A stretch of 64,000 nt of DNA from Symbiotaphrina buchneri (Eukaryota > Ascomycota > Symbiotaphrinales > Symbiotaphrinaceae), in the NCBI GenBank assembly GCA_001599915.1, contig BCIG01000020.1, forward strand, positions 332,046-396,045, written 5' to 3'. The notes under the pieces are model-generated. The model did not search any database. It was not told where the DNA came from and worked only from the letters and a program-made list of their open reading frames with translations. Numbering within the stretch: the first letter of the stretch is position 1; each line of letters starts with the position of its first letter. The translations under genes and the position numbers were made by a program. This document shows positions 681 through 63,498 of the stretch, piece by piece.

Positions 681-3600
681 TCTATAATACTACTACAAAA
701 CACCGCCAAGACTTTTAGTTAGATATAGCCGTTTAACTCTTTACAGTTAACTTTCTTCCCAATTAGGAACAAACTGTGCCGGACTTTTAACAGCCGAAGT
801 TCTGCGCTCTACCTACAGCTGAAACAGCTGTAATCACGCCAAAAATGCTGTGTACCAAGCACACCGTGGTATATGACCCTAGATTGCGGCCTAGCTATAG
901 TTGTTCACGTGTTATACCCCCTGGATTGCGCTATATCCATAGCTGTTATAGCTGTAATTAAACAAAAAGGGTCTTCAGTCAATACAAATCCTTCAAAGGT
1001 GTATATGTATATCCCTGGAAAATAATTTTACAAACGTAATCTTGCTAACAACTACTTGGTAAACAAGAAAACATGTACAACTGTAACAACTACAAAACCA
1101 CATTTTCTTCCCTTTAACCTGCCTCTTTTTTCTTCTCTTTATCACATATATTCTGAGATTTATTCAGTTCTTTCTTTAATTATTACTACTATTCTAATAT
1201 GTTACAGAATCATAGACATCAACCTCTTGTAAAGGTTGATATGAACGTGGATAGACCTGTAACCATACCTGATTCTATCATCATTAAACATCTATGATCC
1301 TTTTCAGCTTCTATTATTTTCTTATCTTCTTTACCATGTATGTATACTCCAGCTAAATAACTGTTTACTATATCATTCAGTATTATTTAAAATACAACAT
1401 TGTATACTATGTTTACAATAGTTTAATTCTTTTGTTTCCAGTTAATTTATCCTGAAACACCTTTCTAAGAGCTTAAAGCTGTTGTAAAGAAGGTTACAGT
1501 TGATACAGTTCAAACTATAAACATTATAACAACTATATCAGTTAATAACACTGTATAAACATCGTTTGACACAGGACCACTTAAGTAACCTGTATCTGTT
1601 CCTGATTGTTACTATGATATTTGATTCCAAGTCTTGTTCTTTAACACAACTATTAATGTTAAGAGTTTGTTGAATAAAGATAATACATCATTAAACATAT
1701 CAAACGTATTAAATAAAACCTATAATTCAATTAAAAAGAAACCGTTTTATCTGACAGATAATGACCAAGCGTTCAAAACAAACCTTATTCAGAACAATTT
1801 ATAATCAAGCTACTTAACAACATCATATACACCTAAAGGACCAGGGACATTCAAACCAGTTGTCTTTAATCCAAATAGTTATTATCCCTTAGGACCTTTA
1901 ACTAGATTACTGTTAATACAAGTAAAAATCTAACCTTCTATACATTGAACTGTAGATTAAATTCCATCTCTTTAGAAGCTTTTACTGTGTTAGGATAGTT
2001 AGGGATAGGTGGATAGCTATTGAATCAAGTAGGAAAATAGATAGGGAAATATACTATAAAGGAAACACCGTTATAAAACAATGGGAATAAAGTCTTTGTA
2101 CAGGTTGTTACATAGAAAAATCACATAGAAAACCATATAAAGAAATCATCTATTTAAAACAAGAAACAAACATCAGTAAAACAGGTTCTGAATTTACTAT
2201 CTAACATGCTGATCCTTTATCTTATTATCAAAAAAAGAGCTTTTATTTCCTGGAATACAGAACATCAGAAAAACGTTGTTTTATTCTGTTCTACTAGAGT
2301 TTAGACCACATCATGTAATGTTAGTACAAAAGCACAAATCATCTTCTGTACCTTTTGTACCTTCTATACCCTTTTTCCCATTATACTACCTAGCTACAAG
2401 CCCAGTATATCACAGATTTTACCCTGTTTTACAGACTGTAATCCAGGACTAATTACAGGTTAACATATCGATTTCTTACTGGTTACAAGTTTATACCATG
2501 TTATCAGCTTACCTTCAACTGTATCAACCTTTTTAAACACTTTAGATGAAATATACAGTTTCTAAGAATCCTTACCTGAGTTACCTACAGTTTCTTATTA
2601 TCAAAGACTTCAATTTAATGATTTATAACGTTCTTAATCATTATGTCTTATTATTAAACCTTTGTTTCTTTCTTTCTTTACAACTGTACCCTGTTATATA
2701 ATCATACCTAGGTTTCCAAGGGCTTTTAATTCAGTAAACAAAGGTATTAATTCACAGATTCATTATCTTAAACCTATAGATTAACAATGTTCATATTGTT
2801 TTATTCTGTATTATAAACACCAGGGTATACAAAATTAGGGGTCCTGTTGTAAAGATAATGATATCCAACTCCTAATGATTTGTAAACTGTCTGAGTATCT
2901 ATAAAACTTATTTACATTTTAAGAGACTTATGTTTATAAGTTTCATGATAATATTCATCAATATAACTGTATTCTGGCTTTTACATTCTTTAATTACACT
3001 ATTGACTTACATTTCTATACTAGTTATGGTCTGAATGTGTTTATAGTTCATAAAGAACTGTATCATGTACATAGATCATTGTAAACTATCTTAGATAGAC
3101 CATTACAATATATACAGCTGTTTATTTATAACTCTGTATATATAACCCAAGCTTGTTATCAATGGAATCTATAATTGAATCTGTATATCATCTACAATTT
3201 AACCAACATGTTATATAAGGTTAACCCTTTTATCAACATGTATTAAATTGTAAATGAACAAATATATAACTTTACAATTGTAACCCAGAATATTTATATT
3301 CTGTTTAATCTATAAATACAGTTTATTCTTAAATATAGTGTTGATTATCATTGTAAGAATTTGTTGATAACAATAGAAATCACAGCTGTTGTACCTGATA
3401 TGGACAATATTATCTTTTACAACCAGGAGATCTGTTTTATAAACTGAAACATCTTTGTTAAAGCATTTTAAACAATCAGTTATAGGTATCCAGTTTATAT
3501 TCTTCTTTATTATGTTCTCTTATTTCCATATGAAAACCAGGGATTTGATTGGAATATTCTTATTAAAGATCATTAAAAAACTTAAAAGATTACTTGTTTT

Positions 3601-4053
3601 CAACAATAGGAATATTATCATTACAGGCTATACAATCAGTTTAATTACTTCTTGATGTTCATTTATACTGAATGATTAGAACAACAATATTTGATTGATG
3701 TTTAATGTATATATAAATAATTAAAACTGGATTGGTGTTAAAATCACCAGAATAACATCCATGCTGATATCTATATTGATATTACAGATGTATTAAATTA
3801 TAACGATTTTAATCTAAGCTGTCTTAAACAACCTATTATTCTTTTCTTTACTTATGTTGACAATCTATGATAAATGATGTAATTGTATCAAGACTCCATA
3901 GTAATTGTTCGTTATTTTGGTTGTTTAATGTTCTTTATCACATTTACAATCAACTTAAAATGGAGAAAGATCCAAGAAGAACTGTTACCTGGCTAAACTG
4001 TAGCTGATAACCCTGTTTTAGTTGTAAGGATATTTTATACAAAATAAACTGAG

Positions 4054-4323
4054 TTGTTACATAATCTGAAAAAGAAACATGTCTTTGGTAAATATGTTGG
4101 TTATGTTTGGATAATTAAGTATCAGAAATACAAACTGTTACATATGTATCTGTTTTTATTCCTTGTTATAACAGATTGTTTTGATACACTTGAATACATT
4201 GATAAGATCATATCAACAGAGATACCCAATCGTTCTGATATTGAACTATATCAAATTGTAACAACTATAATGTTATATAGTCTGTGTGATATAGGTATAC
4301 ATTCCTTACTATCTTGTATATAA
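4054..4323 (+). pseudogene. Helitron Rep-domain remnant
   Basis: This open stretch reads like the Helitron_like_N / Rep endonuclease segment of RepHel proteins. Visible blocks are VGYVWIIKYQK, a hydrophobic LHMYLFLFL strand, YIDKIISTEIPN and ELYQIVTTIML, in the order known for the family. The catalytic HUH motif (normally H-M-H) reads H-M-Y at 4141-4149; a His-to-Tyr change is what a single C-to-T transition would give. Both flanks run into stops. The reading frame differs from that of the helicase remnant downstream, so a frameshift or an intron must lie between them. Confidence 0.78.
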
Positions 4324-6581
4324 CAAGATTGTCATCAATGTTATCATTGTTAAAAGGGTTTTTTAAAGACATTATATAATTATATAACCATCAGTGATAA
4401 TGGTTATCCACTTTACCAATGATGGAATAATAGTTAATATCTATAAGTTATCAATTTATCTGGGAACTTTATGTTTAATAACCATTGGATTGTTTCTTAT
4501 AATCTATATCTTTTACATAAGTATTAAGTATATATTAATGTTAAAGTTTGTATAATTGCCAAGGTTGTAAAATATATTTACAAGTATATTTACAAAGGTT
4601 CTAACCGGTTTACAATGGAATTACATCAAGATAATATAGTTGTAAACAGCTTGGATAAGATTTACAATTATTTACAAGCTTGTTATGTTAAACTGATAAA
4701 AGCTGTATAGTATCTTTTTGAGTTTGTAAATCATAAGAAAAATCCTTTTGTTTATCCTCTTAGTTATTATCTTCCTGGTTAACAACCTGTATATTTCTAG
4801 ACAAATAATACAATAGATGAATTACAAACACAAGTAAATATTATATGTTTTATATTTATAGTATTCTTTAAGTATAATGTTAAGAATCCAGATGATTGTA
4901 ACAAGTTCTATCAACAGTTTCCTGAATACTATACCTATAACAAATTTAATTGTATATAAAATATACATAAGGTTAAAGAAAAGTTTATAATTAACTGTAT
5001 GTATCACTGTATATCTATTGTAGATAAACGTTTTTTCCTATGGTTGTTACTGATCATTGTTTATAGATCATAATTATTTAAATACCTATATACTGTTAAT
5101 GGAATCTGTTACCCAATCTTTCAAGAAGTTTATCTTGTTCTTGGATTACTGGAGAATGATTAGAAGTAGATTACATGTTTTAAAAAGGTTGTACTCTTTG
5201 TATTTGAATAGATACTATGGACTTTATATACTATGATTCTCTTATATAAAGGTATGATTCAGTCTGTCTGTATCTAGAATCAGTTCTAGGATCAACTATG
5301 TAATGATCTTTCCTGAAAGCTATAACAACTGTAGATTGATACAGCTGGTTTTCAAGACTTACATTTTAATTATAGCCTGTATCTGATTTCACAGATCTTT
5401 AAAAATACATATAAATCACTTGTAGATTTTGGTTTCCTGACTTTTATCCATAATTAAACTGATTATAAGAATAATCCCTTGATTCTGAACAAAATAAACT
5501 ATGATGTTTAGGTTAAGACTATGTTTACAAGAAAATGATATCTACTTTTAAACCCTGGTTAAAAGTTTTATTTTTACTGTATTACAACGATAACAACTGT
5601 ACAACCATTTCATATGTTATTCTTTTTGAACAATGTTACAGGTATAAGGAAAACCTTCTTTTACAAGGTACTTTGTAATCATTTTTAAAGACAAGGAAAG
5701 ATTGTTATCTATGTTGTTTCTTCTAGGATCACAATCTTATTTCTTTCTAAAGGTTGTACAACCTATTCATGGTTTAAGATTCCTTTGGATCTTATTAACA
5801 ACAACCTGATTTGTTTTACAACCAATAGTTAGACTATAGAATTCATATATTGTACTTTCCTTATTATCTAGGATAAAGTACCTATATAAGACAAGAGATG
5901 TTTTAAAACTACAGATTTAACCCTTTGTTTTATTCTTGATAAGAACGAATTCTTTAATGGTATTCCAATGATTTTTAAAGATAACTTTGTTTAAATTCTT
6001 TCAATTATTGTACATGGAAACCAAAGGGTTATTGTACAAGTTTATTTTCAGAAGTCCATGTTATAGTTGTATTGTGAAAAACTACAGTTATCTTAGAATT
6101 ACAGATTATAAACAACAGGTTAAACAAATAATTATTACATTAGATATAGTAACTTTTCTATAATCTAAATCTTTATAACTGTATTCTAGTTATAAAAGGT
6201 ATCCAGTCTTTTCAATTACTTGTATGTTTTTATGAATATATATTCTCTCATGATATACTTGATCATATGTTAGAATACTTAGAGTTCTTTATTGATTGAT
6301 TAATTCTTAGTATATAAAATAACTCAGTTAATAAGTTCAATGATTTTCTTCTAAACCAGATACCAGGTAAAGTCTTTACATATTATTCTGTAAATATAAT
6401 AGATGTTCTGAATGATATAAATACAGTAGATATATTACTTTCTGAATTTCTTGTGATAATCAATGTTGTTATCATTCTTCCTGTGTAATTACGGCTTAAA
6501 GTTAATGTACCTGTTATGTTACTATGTAACCTTTATTTGTAAGAAGGTCTTTATAATGATACCTGGTTTTTAATCACTAGG

Positions 6582-6866
6582 TTGCAAACCAGATATATTA
6601 AGGCCTGTATCCTTAAGAATGAGTTTAATGATTATTTTAAGGTTTTACCCTGTATACCGTTAAATACAAAGGAGAATGATTTCCTCTCTGTTCTTATACA
6701 CAGACAATTTTCAATCTGTCTTTGTTTTGTTATAACTGTTAACAAGTCCCAGGGTCAATTATTCAATATAGTTGATATTGATTTACAGCTAGGAACATTT
6801 GTACACGGTCAGATATATGTTGTATTCTTATATGTTATTATTGTTACAGGTTTATCTGTTTTGTAG
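6582..6866 (+). pseudogene. Helitron helicase (PIF1-like) C-terminal remnant
   Basis: The translation carries the last helicase motifs of Helitron/PIF1 proteins: PLNTKENDF, HRQFSICLCF, the near-invariant NKSQGQ (6741-6758), then FVHGQIYV, which corresponds to the HGQLYVALSR block. The final SR arginine region is degraded. The surrounding sequence is AT-rich and closed by stops on both sides. It lies about 2.3 kb downstream of the Rep remnant on the same strand, as expected for one RepHel gene. Confidence 0.82.
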
Positions 6867-8386
6867 AATGAGAATCAGGAGTAAAAGACTGATAATATTG
6901 TTTACCCTAAGGTTTTATTACATCTATGATCTTAAACAACCAGGTAACAAAGACTATATACTGTATAGTACAGGGCTAGTAATTGTTTTGTATATAACAT
7001 TTATTAATATAAAAGTTTACATGTTGTTTTTGGTTCTTTCTAATAAGATATCTTTTTATATTAACTGTAATTGTTAACCGTTTCTTTATAGTTACTAAAA
7101 TTTTTTTAACAATAATACAAGATTTATTCTTGGATTTGATTCAAAATACAACTGTAAAAAAGAACAGTAGACAGAATACTGTTTTCTTAAAGCTGTTATC
7201 TGTAACAGGATAAGTACAGCTGTAACAACTAATTCTTATTAACCTTATGTTGTTTGATTTTTAAACAACTGTTTATAACAGAATGAATACAGTTGTAACA
7301 ACTATTTCTTTTTGATCTTATGTTCTTTGATCTTATCATGAAGTTTAGCCAGTTTAAAACATTTGTTGTTGATTTATCTTAGTAACTTGTTCATATCTGT
7401 TTAAATCACTTAAGGTTTATATTCTGTAGTCTTGGGTTTCTTGACAACAAATGAATCATCTGTATCAGTTTTAAGGGAATGTTTTTGTTTGTTTGATATA
7501 AAGTATGTAGTTTTCTTATTAAAAGCTGTAAAAAATGTTTAGTATTGTTTTATAAGATATTATAATTGTAACTGTAACAATTGTATATACCCTGTATAAC
7601 AGTATATAAACTGTAACAGGTTTCTGTAAAACTAAAGTAACAGTTTGTATATGATCTCTTAAGAGTATCAGATAATGTTATACATCAGGTATAAGGATCA
7701 TAAACCTTGATACAATGGTTGTAAGGTTTCAAAACAGCTGTACCAGTTGATTGTATTATAAAGGCCTTTATATTGACCAGCTGTTTTTTGAACCTATGTA
7801 ACTTGGTAACCTGTTCAGGATCTTGATTCAGTTTTCCTCTCTTTTAAGGATTACAGATGATAGATAGCTTTGTAACATGGTTAAGTACTTTATTCAATAA
7901 GAATGTATCCTTTAATCCTTGAAGAATGAATCCTGTCTTTTTGTACTATTATAACATTAGTAAAAACCGTAACAGAAGTAAGCTTTACATACTTTATCAT
8001 AAGATATCTTAACATGTTTTACAGCTATAAGGTTTATAATCCCTTTTTAATCTTTAATCCTTCTTGTAAATCAGCTAGCTGGTATGTTGTATTTGATTTC
8101 TTTATCTGTATCTATCATAGCCTTTAATAAATAACTAGATACAGGATGTTTTAATTGAAGTTCATTTATAAGTAAGTTTATATTGTTTACATTAATCATT
8201 GATATAATACATGTAACTTTTCTCTATGGTTTACAGGTTAATATTGATTTATAATCATTTGATTCATTTGATTCATTGCTTCTGTTTATAGAAACAGGAT
8301 TGTTATTGTCTAAGACTTTATCTATGATATAATATACAACTGTTTTCTCTTTGTCTTTATATCAGTTACCTTTTGTTAACATTATA

Positions 8387-8515
8387 ATCAATGTAACTAG
8401 TGTAGTTATACTTTGCTTAGATGTAATCAATATAACTAGTACAGTTATACCTTGTTTAAATATAGTTAACATAGTTGATATAGTTGTTCCTTGTTTAGAT
8501 ACAGTTAACATAGTT
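8387..8515 (+). repeat. 39-bp tandem repeat, about 3.3 copies
   Basis: Three full units start at 8387, 8426 and 8465, each 39 bp, followed by a partial unit from 8504. Units share a core of the type AACTAGTrCAGTTATACyTTG and differ mainly by transitions. The array is open in one frame, giving an Ile/Val-rich repeated peptide, but there is no reason to think it is a gene. It lies in the 3' third of the Helitron. Confidence 0.8.
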
Positions 8516-8817
8516 ACAGGTTACTTTGTTAATAGCTCTGATATCTTTAAACATGGTTTTATATATTCAAAAAAGATCTTAAAAATGTAATCATGTATAT
8601 CCTACGATAATAATTAACATTATTCAATGTTTATTTAGTAACATATGTAAAAACATACTATTGTCAATTGTTTCAACCTGATTCAATCCTGATTATAAAT
8701 TGTTTATATGATTTAGTTAATTTGTTACAATTGTTTCAATTGTATATAACCCTTTACTGTTATTTATAGTCTCTTTAGATTACTATTATTAAATAGGTAT
8801 AATAGCTATTGTTTAAC

Positions 8818-8943
8818 CATAATAGGTTATTAAAACATAATAGATTGTTAAGATACAATAGGTTATTAAATTGTAATAGATTATTGAGATACAATAGGTT
8901 ATTAAAACACAATAGATTGTTGATGTGTAACAGATTCTTAAGA
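8818..8943 (+). repeat. 18-bp tandem repeat, 7 copies
   Basis: Seven 18-bp units with the consensus yAyAATAGrTTrTTAArA run from 8818, with a degenerate eighth unit after 8943. Units ending GGTTATTAAA and GATTGTTAAG tend to alternate, which suggests a 36-bp higher-order unit. Because 18 is divisible by 3 the array is an open frame encoding an NRLL-type repeat; this is a by-product of the period and not evidence for a protein. Confidence 0.85.
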
Positions 8944-9645
8944 TATAATAAACTGTGTATTCTGTTATGTATTTATAATAGTTATTATTAAATATTCTAT
9001 AACCTGGATTTCCTTACTATCTTGTATTTTACTTTGTTACAGTTAGAAACTTTTTATAACTATAAAGAATATATATACAGGAGGTCTTTTATTCTTAACA
9101 TCTTTATTATCTTTCTCCAGGTCAATACTCATGTATTCAGTCTATATCAACTAAATTAGTTATGTTCTATTATTACAGTTATTACAACTACAAATACAAT
9201 GTTCATCATACAGGTAAGGAATTTGATTGTACTCTATAACCGTTTATTGATGTCGTAAAATCAATATATAAGGAGATAAGATAGAAGTAAGGATGTTTGC
9301 TTACATCATCAAACAGACGGTTCAGGTTGTTGATGTTGGATGACCCTGGGTCCGTCATTTTTCATGTCTTGATACCTAATCCTCATTAGTTTAGTTATCA
9401 AGATCATCAAAATACCATCTAAAATCATTATATTTTGATGAAAATCACGTTCTGATCAATGAAATGATGATAAAACTTACCTATCTGGATCACTAAAGTA
9501 GTTTCTTATTGTTAACTAACCTTCTGTTGGTGGTAAAGTACGTGGTAAGATAAGGATGTAGGAGAGAAAGTAAGGAAAGGTTTGATGGGTTTGTATACGT
9601 TATTGACTAGGAACTATTCCTGATTAGGATTCAATAGTCACATGA

Positions 9646-9680
9646 CCACCCTCGAGTAATCGAGGGTGGCATAAATCTAG
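9646..9680 (+). other. Helitron 3' terminal hairpin and CTAG end
   Basis: A perfect inverted repeat, CCACCCTCGA / TCGAGGGTGG, with a GTAA loop is followed 7 nt later by CTAG and then by T in the flank. This is the transposition terminator expected at a Helitron 3' end. It is GC-rich compared with the element body, so it seems to have escaped most of the point mutation. Confidence 0.88.
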
Positions 9681-10172
9681 TTCACATAATCAAAGTTGTA
9701 TCAGCCTTTATGGTAGTAGGTGTGTCAGATGCTGTCAAATGTATGATATGGCTGCAGCCAGGATGCCAGGCGCAAAGAGGGCATGGGTGTACGAAGGGGC
9801 TAGCCTGGCACCCGACTACTCTCAGTTACCAGTAGACCTTTTCAGAGTCCTGCGGTGCACATGACATTGATGCTTAAAGTGATTTGATATCGCCAAGCAA
9901 TTGTCGCGAACCCCACGAATTTAGGAGTTAGACGCGCCTCTGCTGGTGGTGTTCGCCGCGTTACACGACAACTGCCTACCTACCTAAGGTACCTTATGGA
10001 TTGCTTCTCTGACTTGACGTCCTAGCCCACAACACGGGTCAGATGCACGATCTAGACGCCGGTCATAATCACAAGAATTGTATCATGGGGCATTGGTGAG
10101 AACAGTATCGAAAACAGCCCCTGGCTGCTTCACGTCGATTCCTGCGATTGGACCATTGCAGCACAATTCAAG
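9681..10172. other. intergenic, upstream of the GCP4-like gene
   Basis: Normal-GC sequence between the Helitron and the next start codon. It contains a CTACCTACCTAAGGTACC motif cluster (about 9975-9996). No gene or RNA is recognised. It presumably holds the promoter of the downstream gene. Confidence 0.5.
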
Positions 10173-12587
10173 ATGCTACACGAAATCTTCCTCTGTCTTT
10201 CCGGCCATAATTCGACCCTTCTTTCAGCTTCAACTAGCCCTGAAACGGGTTCTCCTTTTCCAGGAAATAAGCTGCTATCACCACCAGAGCAAGCTCTGCT
10301 GGGGTCTATTGCACGTCTGAGCCGACTGCATCGCGACATATCCGCTCGTGCGACACGGATAACAACATCCCATCCCTCTGCTGTATGCAAGGCGGTCTCG
10401 ACAGCCATTCTGTCTACGTATCTCGGACAGTATCAGCGGAAGATCCTAGAGGTGGAAAGGAAGATTCTTCAAAATGACGCAGACTTGGTCGGGACTTTGG
10501 GCATCGTCCCTCTTTCCGCCGTGGTCAGAGAGTTCGACACCTGGATGAGACGTATGGAATGGTTTGCGCAATTGACAGATTTCATGTTGCCTGACCACGA
10601 AGCTGATGGGAGCACACACTCGCGGCAGAAAGTCGCGCCTACTGGCCACTTATGCGAAGGTGCTGCAATCATAAATAGGCTAAGGGATGAGGCGCGTACT
10701 GGGTATCCTGATATCGAAAAGGTTGTGAATCACCTGACTAAGGTGGCCGAAATGGCATGGTTGCGGCAATTGTCAAGTTGGGTCCTATACGGGAAGCTGC
10801 CAGAGTTTGGAGCGGACGACTTTTTCATACAGAAGTTTAGCCGGAGGGCGGAAGATGATGCTGGTGACAGGTCAACCTTCGCGATTCAGACCACGCTTCT
10901 GCCCGTTTTCGTGACAGCATCGACCGCTTCTTCAATTCTCTTTATTGGGCGTTCGCTGAACCTCATCCGGACACGAGCGGCCCAATTGATGTCCACTGGT
11001 GGACTTGGGGTGGCCTCATCTCCAGAGTTGGCTCTTTTACCAACTCATCTGCGCCAGTTATCTATGTTGGTCCCTCCAATCTCAGCCTCTTCGCTTTCAA
11101 ACGCTGTCGCAGCCATCCGATTATCTCTATCACAGAATACTCTTCAGCAGCTACTACCTTTGCCCAAGATCATTCAGGTACTAGAATTGCTTCGAAACTT
11201 CTTTCTCTTAGGTCGAGGAGAATTTGCGATCGCTTTGATTACCCAGGCGGACGAAGCTATACAATTCCGCCGTCCCCGGCCGTCCCTGCGAGAGGATTCG
11301 CGAAAACCGCTTCCGGGTCTGGACGCCGTCGTATTGAAGGACGGCGAGATCCTAGCTGTCCTTGCTCGTACATGGGCTGTTTTATCATTCATGCAGAAAG
11401 GTGAAGACGTCATCGACGATGAACTTGACCTCGCTCGCGACCTTATCAATCTCGAACGTTCCAAGGCCAACGACGAGACTATGGCCGCGTTCAATGGATC
11501 GGATACTGAGGAATCAAATTACGAATATCTTGAAACTTCCTTCAAAGACCTGCTTCTTCCTGTCTCAACCAGTCTAACCCTTAGTATACCGTCTCCGCTG
11601 GACCTGTTTCTTACCTCTACGGATGCACAGACTTATTCTACGATCCATGCATACTTACTCAGTATTCGCCGCGGCCACCACAGATTATCTCACATGTGGC
11701 GCAATACACCCATCCGGCGAGATCATCCGGCTCCACCGGGACCGCCGTACAGCAATACACCCCTGGGGCAAGCAACTTTGACAAAAAGGAGATTAAGATC
11801 TCATGGCCGCAATCTGTGGATGCGGCCGATTTGGGCAACTAGCAGCGCAGCGCTCTTCTTGTTGGGCGAGCTAGGCGCCTATCTTCAGCAAGACGTTGTT
11901 GAAGCCTCTTGGGAGGAGTTTCGATCATGGATTGAACAACCTCAGAAGCAATCATCGAGGCCTCCCACATCTGCTTCTACGATGTCCGGCCTCTCGATCC
12001 CGGATTCAGCTTTTCCTTCTGCAAGCGGTGACATGACAGGGTCAACTTCGGCTTTTGTCCAAGAGCGTCCTCCTCATGATCCTGAAACGCTGTCTCGTGC
12101 CCACAGCTCCTATCTGGCTGCTCTAGCACAAGCGATCTTGCTCACAGACTTCGTATTTACGAATACGCTACGGAAATTTCTTCAAAACCTCGACCTTTAC
12201 CTATCCCTAATCGGGCGACTACAGTCCGTTCAACACAATATTGATCTTGAATTAGATGATGGTGTAGTCGATGCATTCACCAATTTCGAAAGGGAGGAAG
12301 TAGATGTCAAGCAGCAGTTGCTGGGCGCACGCGGAGACGTCGAGCTCGGCATGCACAGGTTGGTGACACGGCTGAAAGAATTAGACAGGGACACCACACG
12401 GGGAGCCGGATGGGCCAGACGCCGACTACATACCGCTTTTAGCTCCGGGACACCGAATACGGCTCTGGAGTTTGCTCCAGGAAAGCCAGCAGGCATCGAT
12501 AGGTTGCTGATGAAGTTGGACTATGAACGTTTAGCTTATTCGGCGCTTGAAGAGAAAAATGCCGTGAGGGAGATTTCCCCAGCATAA
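10173..12587 (+). CDS. gamma-tubulin complex component, GCP4-like (Spc97/Spc98 family)
   Basis: An uninterrupted 804-codon gene. The N-terminus (MLHEIFLCLSGH, then LLSPPEQALL) matches the start of fungal GCP4 proteins, and the block YLGQYQRKILEVERKIL followed by GIVPLSAVVREFDTWMRR is typical of the GRIP1 region of the Spc97/Spc98 family. GCP4 is a gamma-tubulin ring complex subunit that caps or completes the ring at spindle pole bodies or septal microtubule organising centres. The C-terminal part (about residues 610-780) contains the helical GRIP2-like region. Length is in the range known for filamentous fungal GCP4, longer than animal GCP4. The start is the first in-frame ATG. No intron is needed. 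A GCP5/6 assignment is possible but fits the N-terminus less well. Confidence 0.85.
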   Translation: MLHEIFLCLSGHNSTLLSASTSPETGSPFPGNKLLSPPEQALLGSIARLSRLHRDISARATRITTSHPSAVCKAVSTAILSTYLGQYQRKILEVERKILQNDADLVGTLGIVPLSAVVREFDTWMRRMEWFAQLTDFMLPDHEADGSTHSRQKVAPTGHLCEGAAIINRLRDEARTGYPDIEKVVNHLTKVAEMAWLRQLSSWVLYGKLPEFGADDFFIQKFSRRAEDDAGDRSTFAIQTTLLPVFVTASTASSILFIGRSLNLIRTRAAQLMSTGGLGVASSPELALLPTHLRQLSMLVPPISASSLSNAVAAIRLSLSQNTLQQLLPLPKIIQVLELLRNFFLLGRGEFAIALITQADEAIQFRRPRPSLREDSRKPLPGLDAVVLKDGEILAVLARTWAVLSFMQKGEDVIDDELDLARDLINLERSKANDETMAAFNGSDTEESNYEYLETSFKDLLLPVSTSLTLSIPSPLDLFLTSTDAQTYSTIHAYLLSIRRGHHRLSHMWRNTPIRRDHPAPPGPPYSNTPLGQATLTKRRLRSHGRNLWMRPIWATSSAALFLLGELGAYLQQDVVEASWEEFRSWIEQPQKQSSRPPTSASTMSGLSIPDSAFPSASGDMTGSTSAFVQERPPHDPETLSRAHSSYLAALAQAILLTDFVFTNTLRKFLQNLDLYLSLIGRLQSVQHNIDLELDDGVVDAFTNFEREEVDVKQQLLGARGDVELGMHRLVTRLKELDRDTTRGAGWARRRLHTAFSSGTPNTALEFAPGKPAGIDRLLMKLDYERLAYSALEEKNAVREISPA

Positions 12588-24372: not shown

Positions 24373-24496
24373 CCGGCGTGAGCAAAACCACCTTAACTTT
24401 TCGCTTGCGCGAACCACATCATTCGCACCCTCCTAGTAAATTTGTATGGGAGCACAAAACGCGTAAGTTCTCCACGAATAACCCGTAAGGCCGGTC
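24373..24496 (+). repeat. left terminal inverted repeat
   Basis: The 124-bp arm begins CCGGCGTGAGCAAAACC and ends GGCCGGTC. It matches the reverse complement of 27902-28025 at all but the third base. Confidence 0.93.
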
Positions 24497-24627
24497 AATT
24501 AAGCTGGTATTTGAAAGGCCTCAATCAGGAAATCTTGAAGCTATTCAGAAATCGCGTCTCTTCGAGCAGTTCGTGGCGTAGGAGGCAGTTTTAGGTGTCG
24601 CAGCCCCTCCAGGATCGCGTCTTGACC

Positions 24628-24966
24628 ATGCCACCAAAGCGCAAAGCCGCTCCAGCATGTGGTAGATGGACAAAGACGCCCCGGACGACCATCAAGAAGG
24701 TACCTAAGAAGCCTTCAAGCCCTGTCATGAACGGAGCTCTTGGTGGAGTTGTTCTAAGAGCAACTCCCATCGTGGACACCAGCGTCTATCAAGATAATCT
24801 ATTTCTGGTCTCTTTAGTAAGACGTTCACCGTCTGAAATCTTCTCTTCGTCACCTTTGAACAATCAAGAATATTTGTTAACCTCCTGTAGGTCTGAAAGG
24901 TTTTCTCCTGATCCTTTTCAGACATCTGTAAATTGTTCTATCCTGGTTGGTTTTGATTCAACATGA
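24628..24966 (+). CDS. small basic ORF in the left arm of the transposon
   Basis: An ATG at 24628 opens 112 codons with a Lys/Arg-rich start (MPPKRKAAP, then KTPRTTIKKVPKKP). It is not recognised and runs into the AT-rich core, where its composition changes, so the C-terminal half is probably degraded. It could be a passenger gene fragment, a second transposon ORF or a chance frame. Confidence 0.2.
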   Translation: MPPKRKAAPACGRWTKTPRTTIKKVPKKPSSPVMNGALGGVVLRATPIVDTSVYQDNLFLVSLVRRSPSEIFSSSPLNNQEYLLTSCRSERFSPDPFQTSVNCSILVGFDST

Positions 24967-27379
24967 TGGCATCTATAAGAACAGTTAGTTCAACCATCTT
25001 AACAGTTGTAAAGGTCTTATCAGTTTCAAAGGTTAAAGTTAATGTCTAGAACAACAAGGAAGATAGTCATAAAACCATTTATCTATATACTGTTCATATA
25101 TAAGATCTTTATAAAGAAGAAACAGTATAAACAACAGGTTACTGTTAGATTGTTAAAAGAAGTCAACTTTATAGAGTTTAAACAAGAGGTATATATGATA
25201 GATTTGAAATATTAAGACAACTATAAAGGTAAGGTATAGAACCATGTAATCAAAACCATTGTTATCTTCAGAAATCATAATAAAAAAGAATTAAAACATT
25301 ATAAAGTTAAATGTCTGAATAATAAAGATTAGTTTGATTTTATATAATATATTATATCAGTTTAAAAACCTAGATAAAGATAACTGTTTTTAAGATCTTT
25401 TTAATCAATTGATATAAATAAAAACCATTTATTTAAACAATATTAAAGATAAATAAAGTTAATAAGTTTCTATTATATATAACTTTAGTATCTAGTTTTA
25501 AAAATCTTAAAACTATCAACAAACTTGTTATAAATATCTTATAAACTTGTAAGATAACCATCAAGAAAGAACTTTAAATTATTAAAAAACAGAAAAAAAA
25601 GAATAAGATGTTTTCTATTATAGAAAAACTTTTAAACTGTTGGTATTATGATAAACAGTTTTGTAAAAGTCATGTTAATAAGTATTATATTTAGGATAAT
25701 AAATACTTTCTTATATATATTAAACTTATACATCAATAGATTACTAAGATATTAAAAGGTAAAACCACTTATACAGATGTTCTATAGAGTATCTTAAATA
25801 ATATTCTGGTTTATAAGTATCAGAAAAACGTTGTAATAACCAAAAAGAAGACAATGATGTCATTAAACATATTAATTGTATAAGGACTGTAGAATTATAT
25901 CCAGAACAACAATATTAATCAAACTATCAATCTATTACAGTTTTAACCAATAGTTTACAGTAGTTCTATTATTAAGATATATAATCTTGACAGTCAGATA
26001 AGGAACTATATTAATTAATAGATTCAATATCAACCAATATAAACCAGTAAGTTTGATAATATATATAATGTTTTGAAAAAAAAAGTATAACTGTTTTCTG
26101 ATTTATACCTATAAGAAGGTAAAATAAAAAGGTATAAGGATTCTAAAGGATATAGGAATCAAGTTTTAAAAACAGGTAAAACAGTTTCTTTTATTCTTAA
26201 TAATAAAGACCTTTAAAAATACTTAGATGGTTATAAACTGGTTTGTTAAACAGACAAAGGTTTATAAATAAATTAAACAAAGATAAAAGATAGTTTCAAT
26301 CTTTTTTAATGTTTAAAAAGAAATAATAAGTTTTATAGAGTTTGTTAACATTATTGATCTGGTTAGTAATAATCTTAAAGATCTTGATGTTAAAGTTTGA
26401 AAAGAAGTCTTTTATTTTATTTAATTAATGTTTTAGGAGTTAAAACTAAATTTACATATTTTAATATAAAGATCCTATTTATTAAAGTTTTCTTATTAGT
26501 TTAAAATGGTAAATTAGTTAGATAAGGTTATTTTAAGGTTATATCTTTATTTTTAAAACTGTTTTATCTTTAATATTAAGGTTTAAAAATATCAAAATGT
26601 AGTTATTAAACTTTCTATCTTAATACTATCTATAATAATTTTTTTTAAAACTTGTTAAATTATTTAATAAAACTTCTAGAATAGAATAATAACATATTTT
26701 AAGAAGAAAGAAAAAAAATCATTCTTAAAAGAATTAAAAATTATTTAAAGTTAACCTAAATATTCTTAAAATATAACCTTATAACAACATCTTTATTGTT
26801 GATAATAAATAAAGGATTAATAATAAGCTTTATAAACTTTATAAAACAATCTTTCTTAATAAAGATATCATTTATCTTATGATTCTTTTTTATTTAACTC
26901 TTTATTATAAAGAAAGACTTTTTAATTAGATTAAAATCAGATAAATAAAAAAGAAGATATACTAACACTATCCTATGTTCTTTACATATATAAAGAAGTT
27001 TTAAATTATAATGAATTAAAATGTTATCTATGATTAAAACAGAATATAATATTAAAAAGGTTTCTATATATAGAAAAACTTTGTTCTGAATAAAACAGTT
27101 AAATAGTTCCTTTGTATACTTTTTATAAAAGATCTTATATACAATATATCTATTGATTATATAAACAAGAAGGACATTCTACTGTTCAGACTGTTTCAAA
27201 GACTTATCTACCTTTTTCTGAACTCTTAGAGAAACCCAAGTTTTTTTCTTATCTTTAGTCTGTTTATTAACAACGTTTTTGTCTATAAAAATATTCTGAT
27301 TAGTAGTTCAACCAAGAAGACATATAAATCAACAGTTATAAAGATATTGATTTCTTTCAGACATCTGTTTCTTAACACC

Positions 27380-27754
27380 TTTCCTACTTTATTACCACAG
27401 TCTGAACATCCTAGAACAGGTATATCAGAAGATCACAAAACCGAACTTCATTCAAATATAGTATGCTATCTTATCTATGTATGCTTTAGAACTGTCAACC
27501 TTCAGCCAGTAGATCAAGCAATACTCCATCTCCAACGTGAGCTTCCTTGGACAGTCTACGGCAAAAGACAGGGCCTCAACTGCGGCCTATATGCAGAGGT
27601 TCTTCCGGATGTTGTATACGATCGGTTTGGATCTACCCAGCGTCTGTACAATACAAGGGACGCTGAATCCGGCTTCTAGGAAGGAGACGACCTTCTCCCG
27701 TTCCTGTTCAGTTAAATGGTGGCCGTTGGGGCGTAGCTTGCTGCAGACGGCCAT
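27380..27754 (-). pseudogene. Tc1-like transposase N-terminal remnant
   Basis: Reading from 27754 on the minus strand, the frame gives LTEQEREKVVSFLEAGFSV and QTLGRSKPIVYNI, a helix-turn-helix typical of Tc1 transposases. A TAG then interrupts where CAG would fit, a RIP-type change. The same frame continues past further stops with KLTLEMEYCLIYWL, IDKIAYYI, KFGFVIF and CSRMFRLW, the usual linker before the DDE_3 domain. The DDE core itself is not readable in the AT-rich part. The start codon is the first ATG in frame. Confidence 0.7.
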
Positions 27755-27901
27755 CGCGGGTTGGCTCTGTGGGGGGGAGACGCGTCGCAGAGCCTCAAAA
27801 CGATCTTCGGACGGCCACCACACCACCACGAAGTGGCTAGGAAAGCTCTTTTTCGTATAGCTTCAAAAATGCCTGATTTGGATTCAAAAACAGCTTTAAC
27901 G

Positions 27902-28025
27902 GACCGGCCTTACGGGTTATTCGTGGAGAACTTACGCGTTTTGTGCTCCCATACAAATTTACTAGGAGGGTGCGAATGATGTGGTTCGCGCAAGCGAAAA
28001 GTTAAGGTGGTTTTGCTCACGCAGG
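27902..28025 (-). repeat. right terminal inverted repeat
   Basis: This is the partner of the left arm, ending GCTCACGCAGG next to the TA target duplication. It is 124 bp with one mismatch to the left arm. Confidence 0.93.
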
Positions 28026-28991
28026 TAGTATGTATTGGAGGCGGGCACTAACCATAGACGGGGTGCAGCTGTCAGAGCTACCAGGTAAGGTCCGGTACCT
28101 TACTGTACTGTATAATCTGTACGGTACCGCCGTTCGTATGGCTGTTGTACTCCGTGCGCAGTACTGTACCTTGAGGTACTTCCATGTCCCATCTTAGCTC
28201 GCACAATTTCCCTTTACAGTGTAAACAAGGGCCAGCTGCAACGTTTCATCATCAAAGGCCGTAAAACCAATTCCCATCAACCAACGACCAACCGTCTTAC
28301 TTACCTTATCTACCTTACTCTGTGCGGGATTGGCCTTCAAATACTGCCTGGGTGCAGGAATCGATCTAAGAGTTTACTGATATAATTGTCGTTACATGCG
28401 CTTTCAATAATCTATCTCTTCCTGCAGCTGCAATTTGTTTCGCAAGTCTTCATCTTTTCGTTCATGCCGAGAATGCAAAGGATGATACAGTGCTGTGTAT
28501 AGGCAGGAGGTCGTCGTTCATAGGATTCTCGCATCAGCATGTGTCGGTAGCTATCAGATATTAGAGATCTGTGAATATTGTGAATACTGTGAATAGTAGG
28601 TTTCTGNCATATCTTACTAACAGTTTCCTTAGAATGAGTTATTGAAATAAACTTACATGTACCTTTTTTTTTACAATTAACCATAAATAATCTGAAGGTC
28701 CTTTTATTTTCTTTAAGTTTTCTTAATTTTTTTTTTAATCTTTTTACTTTTTTTACCCCTATTTATATTAATTAGTACTTTTAAATGGCATATTATTGTC
28801 AATAAGTGTAAATAAACCAAATAACAGTAATAATAGTAAACTGTTATCTTTTAGTAGATGTAGATGCATAAATCGCATCAAGATTGAATAAAATAATATA
28901 AATAACATGACCCAAACCTTTATAGCACTCATATTTAACCATTTAGGTTCTTCAATTTTCACCGATAGTAGCTTAGAGGCGGTAGCCGTTG
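28026..28991. other. intergenic with AT-rich segment and one N
   Basis: The first 350 bp have normal composition with several GGTACC/CCTTAC motifs (28081-28170). From about 28550 the sequence is AT-rich with T-tracts, and one undetermined base (N) sits at 28607. No gene is recognised. The last part must contain the promoter of the kinase gene. Confidence 0.5.
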
Positions 28992-30752
28992 ATGCACGAC
29001 GTAGATTCTTTCTTCAATCCTTTCCGGACAGACCTCCCCTCTCTGCTTCAACTCACTCAGCAGCTGTGCGAGACATTTCGTCAGTTGGCCCTGTCATCGA
29101 CTGAGCAATTCCTTCCTACCCCCGTCACCAGACTTCCCTCTGGTCGTGAGCATGGCCGTTTCTTGGCACTGGATGTTGGGGGCACCAATTTGCGTGTCGG
29201 CCTCATGGAATTGTCCCAACCCACAGTTGATGGTCACGATGCTTCTTTCGACGGTGATAGCAGCGAGTTCTGCACCGAGGGACCGGCCTGCCGGGAAAGA
29301 CTCGAGAAGAATTGGCCTATCGGTGATCATCTGAAATGGGACAATGGACCAGACCTGTTTGCATGGATAGGGAGGGGGTTGTATGGCCGAGGTCGTTGTG
29401 GACTACGTTCGATCTAACTGCGGCATACGTGGCGCCGATGGCATCTCGGAGGAGCTGCCTGTTGGCATCACTTTCAGCTTCCCCATGGCGTAAGCCCTTC
29501 CCCTGAGCAATTCCAAGGAGCCTCTTCATCGTGTTTGTTGCAACACTTAGTCATGATGCCATGGGTCCATTTTGTCTTTGTTTCCTAGCAACTGTTGATG
29601 CTCTGCTTTTCGAAGACAAGCTGACTGTAGTCGCGTGGCAGGCAAAAGTCAATAGCAGAAGCCACTTTGATGCCGATGGGCAAAGGCTTCACCATAAATT
29701 CAAGTGAGCTCGAGTTGGGTGCATTGCTCATGTCGGGCTACGAACGCCATTCCGCCAGGCTGGCCCTTCAGTTGGGGAGACCACTGCCCAGGCTCAAAAT
29801 CGCTGCCATAGCCAACGACACAGTGGCGACTCTTGCTTCCTTGGCGCCTACTGTAAATGCTAGGTGGAATAGCCGGGTGGTGATGGGACTCATTGTAGCA
29901 ACAGGCACGAACGCGGCCGTGTCTATGAAGACCGATCAAATTGGACCCTCGAAGAAGCTACCAGGAGCGGAGTCTGGCAACGCTGAGGTTGTCGTTAACA
30001 CTGAATGGTCGATCCGCGGAACCGCTGGTCCTCTCAAGCAGCTGGGCTTCTTTACAAGATGGGATAGCTTGCTTGACGAAGCCTGCGAGGCTCCTGGGTT
30101 TCAACCGTTTGAGACAATGACATCAGGTCGTTACCTTGGTGAGCTAATCCGCATTGCCATGGTGGATTTCTTAGAGCAAGTGGAACACTTGTCCGCCGAA
30201 GATTTCCCTGATGGCTTAAAACAGCGGAACTATCTTGACACAAGCTTTATCAGAGATTTGGTGATCAAGGCCAAGGGGAGAGGAGATGTGAGCGCTGAAC
30301 TTGAGAGGAAAATGCCTGCTCGGCCGGGCACTGGATGGACCTGGAGTGGTGCACACAGTCAGACATTCATGCAGATCGTCGACCTTGTCCAAATAAGATC
30401 AGCTGCAATGATCGCAGCGGCAATTCTCGGCCTTCTTGCTTGCACTGGTGAATTGCAATTGCCTTCCGAGACAACCCTTGAGTTAGCTCTGGAGTCTAAT
30501 GGGACAAGTCTGCCTGTTTTGGGCAGCAATGGTGATAAAGGCAAGGCCGTTGAGGAACTTGTTGTAGCTTGCACGGGAGGGATGATCACACATTATCCTG
30601 ATTATCGCACAATGTGTCAATCTTATGTGGATCAGCTGCTCACGGCTGTCCGAAACGTGAATTCTGGGAAGAAGATTGTGCTACAAGAGGTACTGAGTGC
30701 AGGGATAATCGGGGCTGCTGCTTTGGCCGCCACCTTCAAAGATTCCACCTGA
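28992..30752 (+). CDS. hexokinase-family sugar kinase with a frameshift
   Basis: Exons 28992-29489 and 29642-30752 (intron 152 bp, GTAAGC donor, GGCAG acceptor). Ignoring one extra base, the product would be 535 residues. The phosphate-binding block FLALDVGGTNLRVG, the family strand PVGITFSFPMA, KSIAEATLMPMGKGF, the ATP-binding AANDTVATL-like motif (read as IANDTVATL) and ATGTNAA are all present, so catalytic motifs are retained. The frame breaks at a G5 run (29374-29378): before it FAWIG, after it MAEVVVDYV in the +1 frame. One G too many explains it, either a true pseudogenising insertion or a homopolymer sequencing error. By memory of family sequences it is closer to fungal GlcNAc-kinase or atypical hexokinases than to glycolytic hexokinase; substrate not assigned. 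Confidence 0.82.
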
Positions 30753-31717: not shown

Positions 31718-33147
31718 CTATGTCAACTTCAAGCTCCTCAACTTTCTCTTCGACATGACTATCTGCCAACCCTGGCCGTCATCCGTTTCCCCCCTGTTGT
31801 GCTGTGGTTCTCCCCTTTTGTGCTCTGGCTCGGGTGGTGTTTTGCTGACCAGTGAGGTGGAAGGCACGAGAGACGGTGCATCGCTCTTCCTCCTCAGCGC
31901 CCTCCCTCCCCTTCTGTTGTCTTTCACGCCTTCAAATCCAAGCGTCTGACTAGACGTGACATGTTCTGTCGACAATTTCGCAGGCGAAGACAGTTGATCG
32001 TCTGCTGGACTTTTGTTGCCCCCATCCTCCTCCTCGCCAGCCTCAGCCAATTTTTGCCCCGTGCGCCAGTCCACGATCGTCTTATTTTGGACCATGCGGT
32101 CATACGTCTTCTTGTTGACATAACGCCAATATCCGCTCATTCTTTTCATCGTCTCCATCTCTTCATTCGCGGTAGCTTGGAGGTCCGTCAGGATCTCTTG
32201 CTTGAGTTTATTGACAAGGGCGTTCCGCGGCTTTGAACTTTGTTCAGAGAAATTGGCAATCCCCAGACGTTTGACAAGGTCTGGTATGACCTGTTCGAAT
32301 GATTCTGTCGTTGGAGAGGTGGGTCCTAGACCCTTGCGTGTCGCCCGGTCGATCTTGTGATATTGGAACAAGCGACTTTGATACCCTATATTGGCAGCAA
32401 TTATGCTGCCTTCGAGTTCTTCATTCCTAGCTTGGCTTCCCGTTCCGTCGACGCCGTCTTTGGTTCCATGGAGAACATCTCCGACCTTTTCTACATCGTC
32501 TGGTCTAACTATATCAAGTTCTGGGTGCACTTTTGCACCTTTCTTCGGTGACTTGGTCTCTTCTTTGACACAACTCTCACAGGGTTGTGGACTGGCAGTG
32601 GAACCATCGGAGTTGGGTTCTTGGTATGTTGGTTGATGTCCAGGGTCTAACTTCTCTTGCTTTCTCTTACCCTTTCGACTTGTCTCTGCTACATCCTTAT
32701 TCTCTTCCGGCATGTCCATCTTGGTTATTTTCTTCACCAAATTTGCAATGCTCCTGTGCCTCTTTTCATGCTCCTGTTCTCCTTTCCGGCATCTATGGAG
32801 CGTCAGCAAGGATAGTTTTTGCATGCTGGGTTGGCTACAAACGGTTCACACTTATGTGATTCCCCTGTGCCTTCTAATCAGCTATCTCTATGTACTGCAT
32901 CACGCCAAGCAGTTATACTGACCAATCTGGAAGAGGGTCTTATGGTATTTTTTGCATACCTCCTCATGCACACCGAAACAAGTCTTCTTAGCCTTTTGAG
33001 ATGATAACACCGTGTGGCAAGTGCCACATTTATGATCTGGCACAGACGATGATCAGTATGTCTCTCTTGCACTAGCGACATCTCCAACATCTTCTTACCG
33101 AGAGCCTTGGTGTCTTCCCAGCGATACAGGATATTATTCGACGCCAT
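31718..33147 (-). CDS. uncharacterised protein, conserved-looking
   Basis: Exons 33147-32960 and 32792-31718, giving 420 residues. The 167-bp intron is long for this window but has a GGTATGC donor, a GCTGAC branch point and a CATAG acceptor, and it joins the frames as CMRRCRKGEQE. The N-terminus (YRWEDTKALGKKMLEMSL) and a central block (about residues 230-320: VIPDLVKRLGI, ALVNKLKQEIL, GYWRYVNKKTYDRMVQ) look like conserved helical regions. The middle and C-terminus are charged, Lys/Glu/Pro-rich and probably disordered. No signal peptide or membrane segment is visible. I recall similar hypothetical proteins in related fungi but no function; I assign none. Confidence 0.7.
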
Positions 33148-61268: not shown

Positions 61269-62651
61269 ATGGCCACTGCAGTCTCTGCACCTAGCCAACA
61301 TAAACAGCCGTCCAGGAAGGGCAAAAGGGCTTGGAGGAAGAATGTCGACATATCAGATGTCCAACAAGGACTTGATGAAGTTCGGGAGGAGATAGTGAGA
61401 GGGTGAGAAATGCACCCGCTTTTGGTCTGCAAAGCTTACTCTTAACCCGTCTTACAGTGGCGTGATTTCCGAGAAGGCATCAGTGGACCTGTTCACTGTC
61501 GATGTATCCGGCGATCAGAGCATTCAAAAGGCTTACAACAAGAGTCGCAAGCCTTTGAAATCAGATGAGATCCTCGCCCGACGGTCGGGGGTCCCTGCTG
61601 TTGCTGGCCGAAAGCGGTCCGCTTCATCGAGGACTACAGATGGTGTGCTCGAATGCGGAACCAAGCGTCCCAGGGGCGGCGTCTCGCATAAGGAGCTGCA
61701 ACGTCTGAAGCAACGTGCCTACGGCGGTGAGGGGGTGCCAAAGGCTGTTGTGGAGGCACCAGAAACTATCGACCACGATCCTTGGTCCCAGTCTGCTCCC
61801 GTGCCAACGACATACACCTTCTTGGACCCTCCCAAGCCAGTCCGTGAGCCAGCCACGTTGAAACAGGTGCCTATGTCAATGCTGGCTTCTGGCAAGGAGG
61901 TTCCCGCTGTTAAGAAACCAGCGGCCGGGATAAGCTACAATCCAGCATTCAATGACTGGGATGAGCTGTTTGTCAAAGAAGGGGAGAAAGCTGTCGCGGC
62001 GGAAAAGAAAAGGCTACAGGAAGCTATGGAGGAGGCTGAGAGGTCCGAAAGAATAGCGGCTTCGGCCCGGGAGGCAGATCGGGCGGAACTTGACGACGAT
62101 GAAGAAAGTGCCTGGGAGGGTATCCAGAGTGAACTGGAGGACGAGGACCGGATGACCAAACGTCCGCGGAGGAAGACAAAGGCGGAGAGGAATAGGATCA
62201 AGCGGCGAAAGGAAGAAGAGCGGAGAAGGCGTTGGGAGGCGCAGATGAAAGACAAGGAAAGGCAGGCAGCGAACATTGAAAAGATAGCCAAGGCTGTCCA
62301 GGCCAGGAAGGGACGTGCGGCTGATGTCAATTCGGAAAGCACTGAAGAGGACAATGATGAGATGTTGCGGCGCCGAATTGTCGGCAAGGCTCCGTAAGTT
62401 AACCCCATCTCTGTGGGTACGGTAACAATTGACATCATTGCAGGATCCCGGAAGCACCTCTTGAGCTTGTCCTTCCAGAAGAACTTCGAGATTCACTTCG
62501 TTTACTCAAGCCGGAGGGGAACCTACTCAAGGAACGGTTCAGGATGATGCTTCTAAGGGGGAAGATCGAATCACGACGCCCAATCTCTCAAGCTAAGAAG
62601 GCGAAGCGCACTTCAACCGAGAAGTGGAGTTACAAAGATTTTGTCATATAA
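61269..62651 (+). CDS. nop53: 60S ribosome biogenesis protein Nop53
   Basis: Exons 61269-61402, 61458-62393 and 62444-62651 (introns 55 and 50 bp), giving 425 residues. N-terminal KRAWRKNVDISDVQQGL, then ISEKASVDLFTVDVSG and the LARRSGVPAV region match Nop53/GLTSCR2 proteins. The PSYNPAFNDW-like ISYNPAFNDWDELF block, a long charged Glu/Lys/Arg helix (about 240-350) and the C-terminal LPEELRDSLRLLKPEGNLLKERF and EKWSYKDF motifs complete the family pattern. Nop53 acts in the nucleolus on pre-60S particles and brings the Mtr4 helicase and exosome to the 7S pre-rRNA (known for yeast). The exosome gene mtr3 lies 10 kb away, which is probably coincidence. Confidence 0.92.
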
Positions 62652-62695
62652 CTTTCCTTTGGGACGTCTGTATGGAGGTACTGATCATATATGAT

Positions 62696-62800
62696 CAGGC
62701 TTGCAAGTGGTCGAATGTGGTATGGTGTTTCGACTTTTTAAGCTCAACCGCCAAGAAACTCGAATGAATATGATAGTTCAGACCCTAGTACCAGATAATA
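62696..62800 (+). repeat. dispersed repeat A, copy 1
   Basis: Starts CAGGCTTG and includes TTTTTAAGCTC, CCAAGAAACT, AGTTCAGACCC and GTACCAGATA. Copy 2 is at 63499-63602. Differences between the copies are mostly transitions. It begins 45 bp after the nop53 stop codon. Confidence 0.65.
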
Positions 62801-63327
62801 AAGCTGTTTAGAATATCAGCCATACCTTTTATGAATTTATAATATGCAAATTAATCTTTGGAACAGATTTACACAGTACTCAGAGAACCAGGCTTGCCGT
62901 TGGTATGGTATATACCACTGAATATAAATATACCACACCAGCGCTAAATGTGGTATATACCAGATTACCAGATCAAAAAGATAAGATAAGAATTTTTTTT
63001 CTTTTAGAATTACTGTTTTGGAAGGGATATAGAACTAGTACTTGGTAAGTTCTATAACTATATTTATAATAATAAACTATTTCTAATCAGGTTTAATATA
63101 CAAGGTAACTTGTATTCAGGCTTGCCACTGATATGGTGTTTACCAGTTGGTATGGTTTACCAAACCGGTATTAAGTACAGGTTGGTGTAGAAATCTGATA
63201 CCAGACTACCAGCTGGTTTGGTATAATAGTGTTTTTCCCTGGGTTGGTAAAAAACAAAAAAACCGGATTGTACTTAGGAAAAATATTTTTCCGGTAATAT
63301 TCGATAATATCTGATAAGATAAACGTC
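62801..63327. repeat. AT-rich RIP-like block with CAGGCTTG repeats
   Basis: More copies of a CAGGCTTGCC(GT/AC)TGRTATGG motif start near 62889 and 63117, each followed by palindromic TGGTATATACCA-like sequence. No coding potential is visible. This looks like a decayed repeat family. Confidence 0.5.
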
Positions 63328-63493
63328 TAGTAAACATCTTTAAACAAAACCTTAATTTTATCTCAATAAATAATCAACCTTTTAAAATAATAAAGACATT
63401 GTTATATAACAAATTCATTGTTGAATAATACCCTTTTTAAAGTTTTAAAATCTAATTAAGATAGGAATGGTTAAGATATTATTATTTTCTACT
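63328..63493 (+). repeat. direct repeat B, copy 1
   Basis: Matches 63663-63822 with an offset of about 335 bp. Shared blocks include TTGAATAATACCCTTTTT and ATTAGG/AAGATAGGAATGGTT. Differences are mostly C/T and G/A, consistent with RIP. Confidence 0.65.
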
Positions 63494-63498
63494 GTAAC

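Follow-up and report, generated by a model that had tools for sequence, protein, structure and literature searches.

The AT-rich tract at 681-9680 of a 64,000-nucleotide stretch of DNA from the ascomycete Symbiotaphrina buchneri (assembly GCA_001599915.1, contig BCIG01000020.1, positions 332,046 to 396,045; hereafter "the window") raises two questions: what the tract was before it decayed, and by which process its interior was ruined and its ends kept. Judged by its termini and by the protein that it once encoded, the tract is a dead, canonical autonomous Helitron. Very probably, it is a canonical Helitron1 insertion that later underwent a C-to-T process, preferring cytosines flanked by G and sparing the ends of the element. 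The more useful point is that both features, the bias towards CpG and GpC and the spared ends, are common to two unrelated transposons of the same window, the second being a Tc1/mariner-like element.

The borders of the Helitron can be read directly. A680 is followed by a TC start at 681-682, while CTAG (9677-9680), an end of the CTRR type, is followed by T9681; the unit comprises 9,000 bp and is nearly full-length. On the same (+) strand, a subterminal hairpin with a perfect 10-bp stem, a 4-nt loop and two intact CpG (9646-9669) is separated by 7 nt from the terminal CTAG. Folded as DNA, the segment 9641-9685 scores z = -8.2, and equally good folding is found in none of 200 shuffled sequences. 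In the 64 kb, both strands considered, only one perfect stem of 10 bp or more (loop 3-6) stands 4-15 nt before CTRRT, against a mean of 0.017 in each of 60 sequences simulated by a first-order Markov model. Canonical Helitron1 elements are described, in the part of the source available, by a CTRR end preceded, 10-12 nt from the 3' terminus, by a short hairpin (PMC5148889); here the distance from the end of the hairpin (9669) to the end of the element (9680) is 11 nt, and by these features the termini are assigned to the canonical Helitron1 type. No inverted pair joining the two termini is present among the matches listed (25 of 39 inverted pairs), and the plant-type 5' consensus of Helitrons occurs in none of the literature matches listed. 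Sixteen bases of the 5' end match 22 viral contigs, by our estimate about the chance level for a word of this length. At the 3' end, the final 20 bases have no match in viral_contigs, and a 19-base version matches one Nitrosopumilus contig, also taken as chance.

Between the two ends lie the remains of a RepHel gene. The six frames of the whole unit, with stops read as X, were scanned with Pfam (E up to 1): the only matches on the three + frames are, in this order, Helitron_like_N, corresponding to Rep (PF14214, 3613-4149, 3.2e-28), a PIF1-like helicase (PF05970, 5614-6159, 1.7e-27) and Pif1_2B (PF21530, 6444-6584, 1.2e-4; 22.1 bits, just below the cut-off of 23.9). When compared with PDB by phmmer (E up to 0.01), a single + frame, 2779-6117, containing a Cys-rich start, Rep and the first part of the helicase, matches one sequence, residues 122-1223 of the bat Helitron transposase Helraiser (7lcc, 6e-90). 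The C-terminal part of the helicase is found in another + frame (6297-6842), where Helraiser is the best match (residues 1280-1460, 6.8e-21), accompanied by 14 weaker PIF1-type chains. Stops occupy 53 of the 1,113 codons of the main frame (the two remaining + frames have 65 and 123), and 57 of the 1,256 codons aligned to Helraiser overall. The frame changes about once in some 4 kb, in the interval 6117-6297; a frame kept over 3.3 kb, followed by a single change, is what point mutation with few insertions or deletions predicts. Rep and helicase are present as homology, with residues of both active sites no longer intact: the HUH site (4141-4149) reads H-M-Y opposite H-A-H in Helraiser, and in the Walker A stretch NVTGIRKT stands opposite GPGGSGQT, in a PDB chain which is itself a K-to-Q mutant. 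The earlier note, made from the letters of the sequence, had proposed a near-complete Helitron with intact ends, and this is borne out by A|TC, the 10-bp hairpin, CTAG|T and the order of the Rep and PIF1 domains, whose similarity persists in profile searches. A search for relatives, with a 287-residue stretch of Helraiser against viral_contigs and genome_contigs, returned 9 and 89 pattern matches, none of which was confirmed, a single-protein query reaching close relatives only.

The downstream part of the Helitron contains two further features. In its last 2 kb, on the - strand and thus opposite to RepHel, 7619-7765 weakly resembles DUF3716 (PF12511, E 0.0023-0.0027; 18 bits, below the cut-off of 22), the sole match of the three - frames at E up to 1, and may be the remnant of a carried second gene; since the same scan returns LEDGF at 0.016, which marks the noise level, it is retained as a tentative lead and not as a firm second gene. 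The term DUF3716 does not occur in the literature searched. Short tandem arrays, with units of 39 and 18 nt, are located at 8385-8950; judged by eye, most differences between their copies are of the C/T and A/G kinds.

The decay of the gene has a direction. Among 922 differences between the Helitron and Helraiser, 241 are explained by C>T or G>A change only, and 37 by the reverse kind. The raw ratio exaggerates this direction, since an AT-rich query by itself yields about 126:40: in 60 shifted registers, obtained by sliding the alignment between 1 and 30 codons in both directions, C>T/G>A explains 126 +/- 9 differences (largest 153) and the reverse 40 +/- 4.5. Against this background, a real and one-directional C-to-T excess in RepHel, with reverse changes at background level, is well supported by the alignment, and it sustains the proposed inactivation of the gene. 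Composition shifts at both sides: GC is 0.48 in 1-931, 0.27 in 932-9636 and 0.51 in 9637-12000.

The sparing of the Helitron ends is real. The 5' end (681-951, + strand) keeps 27 CpG/GpC sites in 271 bp, while in the mutated body (952-9636, GC about 0.27) their density is about 0.010 per base. GC changes at 932 (support 922-959) and 9637, and separate one-break fits place the changes in CpG/GpC density at 952 (support 943-974) and 9653 (support 9638-9751). Forcing the 5' boundary to 681 worsens the fit by 25.7 log-likelihood units for CpG/GpC and by 8.4 for GC alone. At the 3' side, a boundary at the very edge (9681) costs little (4.2 for CpG/GpC, 5.6 for GC), so that the case for sparing rests there on the hairpin. 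Under the rates of the body, the survival of the hairpin has a log10 probability of -10.2, a value as low in none of 1,172 body windows of equal size; for the first 251 bp the corresponding figure is -65.9, the lowest of 395 body windows being -20.6. Both figures take the flank composition as ancestor and treat sites as independent. Segment 9241-9636 is intermediate, CpG being partly and GpC hardly retained, and the 30 CpG within 960-9636 lie closer to the ends than expected by chance (mean distance 1,644 vs 2,169, P = 0.010). The claim that the termini are less mutated than the body stands, accordingly, for some 250-270 bp at the 5' end and for the hairpin at the 3' end; the shift in composition is found at about 932-952, not at 681, and the 3' sparing is essentially that of the hairpin.

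The second element (24373-28025, - strand) is flanked by TA on both sides and bounded by 175-bp terminal inverted repeats (TIRs), 91% alike. One - strand frame matches DDE_3 (26867-27292, 4.7e-10) and, below the cut-off, the helix-turn-helix (HTH) domain HTH_23 (27599-27715, 7.8e-4); TIRs, TA duplication and DDE transposase identify it as Tc1/mariner-like. No sequence of PDB matches it up to 0.05. The Helitron has no blastn match at 0.01 in the rest of the window, and the possibility that it forms one repeat with the Tc1-like core was rejected on this ground. The core (24849-27441) is mutated, with 0.002 CpG/GpC per base, and the ends are normal: over the outermost 400-500 bp or so on both sides GC is close to 0.5, and at 1,000 bp it has dropped to about 0.2. 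Sparing extends some 480-590 bp into the element and covers the part of the frame coding for HTH, and the right CpG/GpC boundary (27426-27465) falls between the HTH and DDE parts of one transposase frame. Between 27862 and 27590 this frame is open; a single stop follows in the spared zone (27587-27589), and from 27454 on there are many. The spared part may have been lightly mutated, or the gene interrupted there. With the caveat of this single stop, a sparing restricted to non-coding DNA was rejected, the boundary lying inside the frame with its HTH side spared. The two CpG remaining in the core show no end-bias (P = 0.38).

Why the ends were spared may be explained in different ways. One is that sparing marks how far homology extended, the triggering copies lacking the ends or being divergent there. 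The sharpness of the Helitron 5' boundary in CpG/GpC density fits such a limit; against it, sparing is seen in elements of two classes, and the GC of the Tc1-like one declines across several hundred bases, not in one step. Taken alone, this explanation is a serious one, although we give it less than an even chance. Another is that the ends were kept by selection, the Helitron having moved on as a non-autonomous passenger after the ruin of its gene. The spared parts, the hairpin and 250 bp at the 5' end, roughly correspond to the requirements of a Helitron transposase. In the Tc1-like element, however, sparing extends inward through HTH-coding sequence and is followed by a gradual fall in GC. 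It is thus confined neither to non-coding DNA nor to sequence required for movement, and is not simply selection for mobilisable ends, which makes the passenger hypothesis rather unlikely. The inward sparing and the gradual fall are better matched, and more likely caused, by a mutator that weakens at the edges or by triggering copies of limited homology. The suggestion of the earlier note, that the Helitron could still be mobilised in trans, follows only weakly from its spared ends: these are given little weight, the neighbouring element being spared beyond its transposon ends too.

The context of the lost cytosines gives an indication of the process involved. In the Helitron body the observed/expected ratio is 0.16 for CpG, 0.39 for GpC and 1.14 for CpA. 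Along the Helraiser alignment, sites scored as changed (with rounded weights) are 55 of 57 for CpG and 55 of 61 for GpC, against 176 of 335 for the others. C>T change was simulated on flanking gene DNA, down to the same GC: GpC remains at about 1.0-1.1, be the change uniform, CpA-favoured or CpG-favoured. Relative mutation rates were then fitted to the frequencies of NCN trinucleotides. For the Helitron, the deviance is 346 for a uniform process, 339 when CpA is allowed its own rate (fitted at 0.86x), 210 for CpG, and 112 for CpG (3.0x) plus GpC (2.1x); for the Tc1-like core the corresponding values are 114, 113 (1.28x), 76 and 33 (CpG 3.1x, GpC 2.7x). In fits with six parameters, CpG is at 3.0-3.1x in both elements, while CpA proceeds at 1.3x (Helitron) and 1.5x (Tc1-like) the rate of CpT. 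A mutator preferring C beside G (CpG about 3x, GpC about 2-3x, in the two-parameter fits) over CpA is supported by these data.

Two histories without such a preference were considered. Slow, undirected AT-biased decay, joined to the ordinary loss of methylated CpG and involving no defence mutator, would agree with the depletion of CpG that is general in methylated DNA; yet simulated CpG-favoured change keeps GpC at 1.04-1.08, CpG alone fits worse than CpG plus GpC in either element (210 vs 112 and 76 vs 33), the frame is maintained over about 1,100 codons and the flanking DNA has normal GC, all of which makes it a very unlikely account. The second history is repeat-induced point mutation (RIP), defined by C-to-T (G-to-A) transitions with a preference for CpA, triggered by repeated DNA before meiosis and dependent on RID. 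Classical RIP of this kind, although in keeping with the C-to-T decay, the one frame change, the sharp GC shift and indices nominally in its range, is the least probable of all, as CpA is not depleted, ACA is the best-kept trinucleotide of the body (2.0x its level in 29500-62000), CpA and CpC/CpT are changed in similar shares (77/157 vs 99/178, p = 0.27) and a simulated process favouring CpA tenfold would bring CpA down to 0.13. Of the original label of RIP, the one-directional C-to-T decay stands (241 vs 126 +/- 9) and the CpA preference does not; the label is better replaced by that of a C-to-T process without CpA preference.

Several points weigh against a mutator preferring both CpG and GpC and triggered by repeats. 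The GpC test on the alignment leans on Ala columns; without them, 11 sites are changed and none kept (p = 0.0012). Among the 133 columns with local conservation, 9 of 11 GpC are changed (p = 0.17), a single site remaining when Ala is left out. Helraiser is distant, with 334 of the 1,256 aligned codons identical, so that inference at single sites is noisy, and the flanking gene DNA used as ancestor in the simulations is a proxy. The six-parameter fits leave residual deviances of 73 for the Helitron and 22 for the Tc1-like core. In these fits C of the Helitron mutates after a 5' G 1.6x as fast as after T and 3.6x as fast as after A; C after A being slow (0.44x), part of the GpC effect there is protection after A. 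In the Tc1-like core the rate after G stays at 2.9x. The two elements concur in their CpG rate and in a faster rate after G, the size of which matches less well. Conventional RIP indices are nominally positive by the usual thresholds (TA/AT 1.10, substrate index 0.93; for comparison, 0.67 and 1.28 in 29500-62000). Finally, each Helitron end is single-copy within the window, with up to 3 mismatches allowed, and the trigger by repeats is inferred.

The preferred reading, a canonical Helitron1 insertion followed by C-to-T change at cytosines flanked by G, may be outlined as follows. Rolling-circle transposition by Rep/helicase is established for the Helitron family and, as the anatomy suggests, would have inserted the element between A680 and T9681. 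C-to-T change then turned many G:C pairs of the interior into A:T, destroying RepHel and leaving the copy dead for transposase; most likely it came in one or more rounds of a process that is repeat-directed or linked to methylation. The change is weaker at the ends of elements, as seen for both the Helitron and the Tc1-like one. A likely agent is a cytosine methyltransferase pathway of the RID/MASC1 or DIM-2/MASC2 class, acting in an unusual context; agent, timing and trigger are all inferred. A stricter proposal is a repeat-directed C-to-T mutator which targets C with G on either side (CpG and GpC) instead of CpA and loses strength across the outermost few hundred bases of an element, leaving ends intact even in coding sequence; a process of this kind was not found in the literature searched. 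The six-parameter fits, by softening the GpC effect in the Helitron, lower its probability, and it is put forward only tentatively, as doubtful. If the pattern shared by the two transposons held genome-wide, RIP indices based on CpA would misdescribe genome defence in the S. buchneri lineage, and sparing of the edges would explain how ruined elements could keep mobilisable ends. With the fading of the stricter proposal, transposons whose genes are ruined and whose ends still work would accumulate as a standing supply of non-autonomous elements.

Ten flanking open reading frames (10056-62397) were scanned, and all but 31718-32845, which has no match, belong to common families: gamma-tubulin complex protein, Zn2Cys6 regulator, GILT, hexokinase, FGE-sulfatase/DinB_2, Sec7, Anp1, nitrite/sulfite reductase with flavodoxin, and Nop53. 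By these genes the host kingdom is indicated as fungal, the Helitron being a full-length, canonical-end element in a fungus. A third AT-rich tract (62619-64000, GC 0.32), cut by the end of the window, contains internal direct repeats and is without Pfam matches (six frames, E up to 1). Beside the Tc1-like element, a short AT-rich stretch (28552-29023, GC 0.27) keeps 6 CpG and 8 GpC and includes the only N of the window, at 28607. To the left of the Helitron, palindromic CCTTAGGTAAGG-type runs are found at 570-629, and a similar-looking run is located to its right, at 9981-9999.

Among known systems, Helraiser shares with the S. buchneri element the RepHel protein, matched first over residues 122-1223 and then over 1280-1460; the element described here differs in being fungal, 9 kb long, with a stop-ridden gene and changed HUH and Walker A residues. 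Comparison with other systems relies on papers available in part. Searches on Helitrons of fungi and on RIP that prefers GpC or spares ends, some of which returned no paper, gave no report of a GpC preference or of spared ends, in the portions of the sources at hand (PMC12543289, PMC5148889, PMC4352252, PMC4858203, PMC4289320, PMC4522978, PMC9910759, PMC12542154); the terms sought are absent from PMC11969663. A kingdom-wide survey describes, in its available part, a shared preference for CpA (PMC12543289). In the excerpt of a lichen genome paper, boundaries between gene space and transposons are sharp (PMC12542154), which offers, as far as this excerpt goes, no support for fading at the edges. 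Fungal C-to-T decay of transposons is reported with CpA, CpT and CpG signatures, the latter in Tuber or Microbotryum (PMC4352252); the CpG type is that found here, while the additional GpC preference is not among the signatures named in the text at hand. FoHeli elements of Fusarium are, according to the sections available, non-canonical Helitrons with asymmetric terminal inverted repeats and other ends; FoHeli1 of F. solani underwent C-to-T change with CpA favoured more than 3-fold (PMC5148889). They thus share RepHel and C-to-T decay with the S. buchneri Helitron, and differ in ends and in CpA preference. Compared by description, Helitron families 98 and 765 of Mycosphaerella graminicola feature, as here, a 3' hairpin followed by CTRR, but, unlike here, a TA dinucleotide at the 5' end (PMC4522978, in part). 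HELPO1 and HELPO2 of Pleurotus ostreatus, in the accessible part of their description, feature an AT insertion site, a T[C/G] start, a subterminal hairpin, a CTRR-type end (CTTG in HELPO2) and Rep and helicase in one open reading frame, followed in HELPO1 copies by further genes downstream of RepHel (PMC4289320). Again by description, the S. buchneri Helitron has in common with them A and T at its borders, the start, the hairpin, the CTRR end and the pairing of Rep with helicase, and differs in that its gene is ruined.

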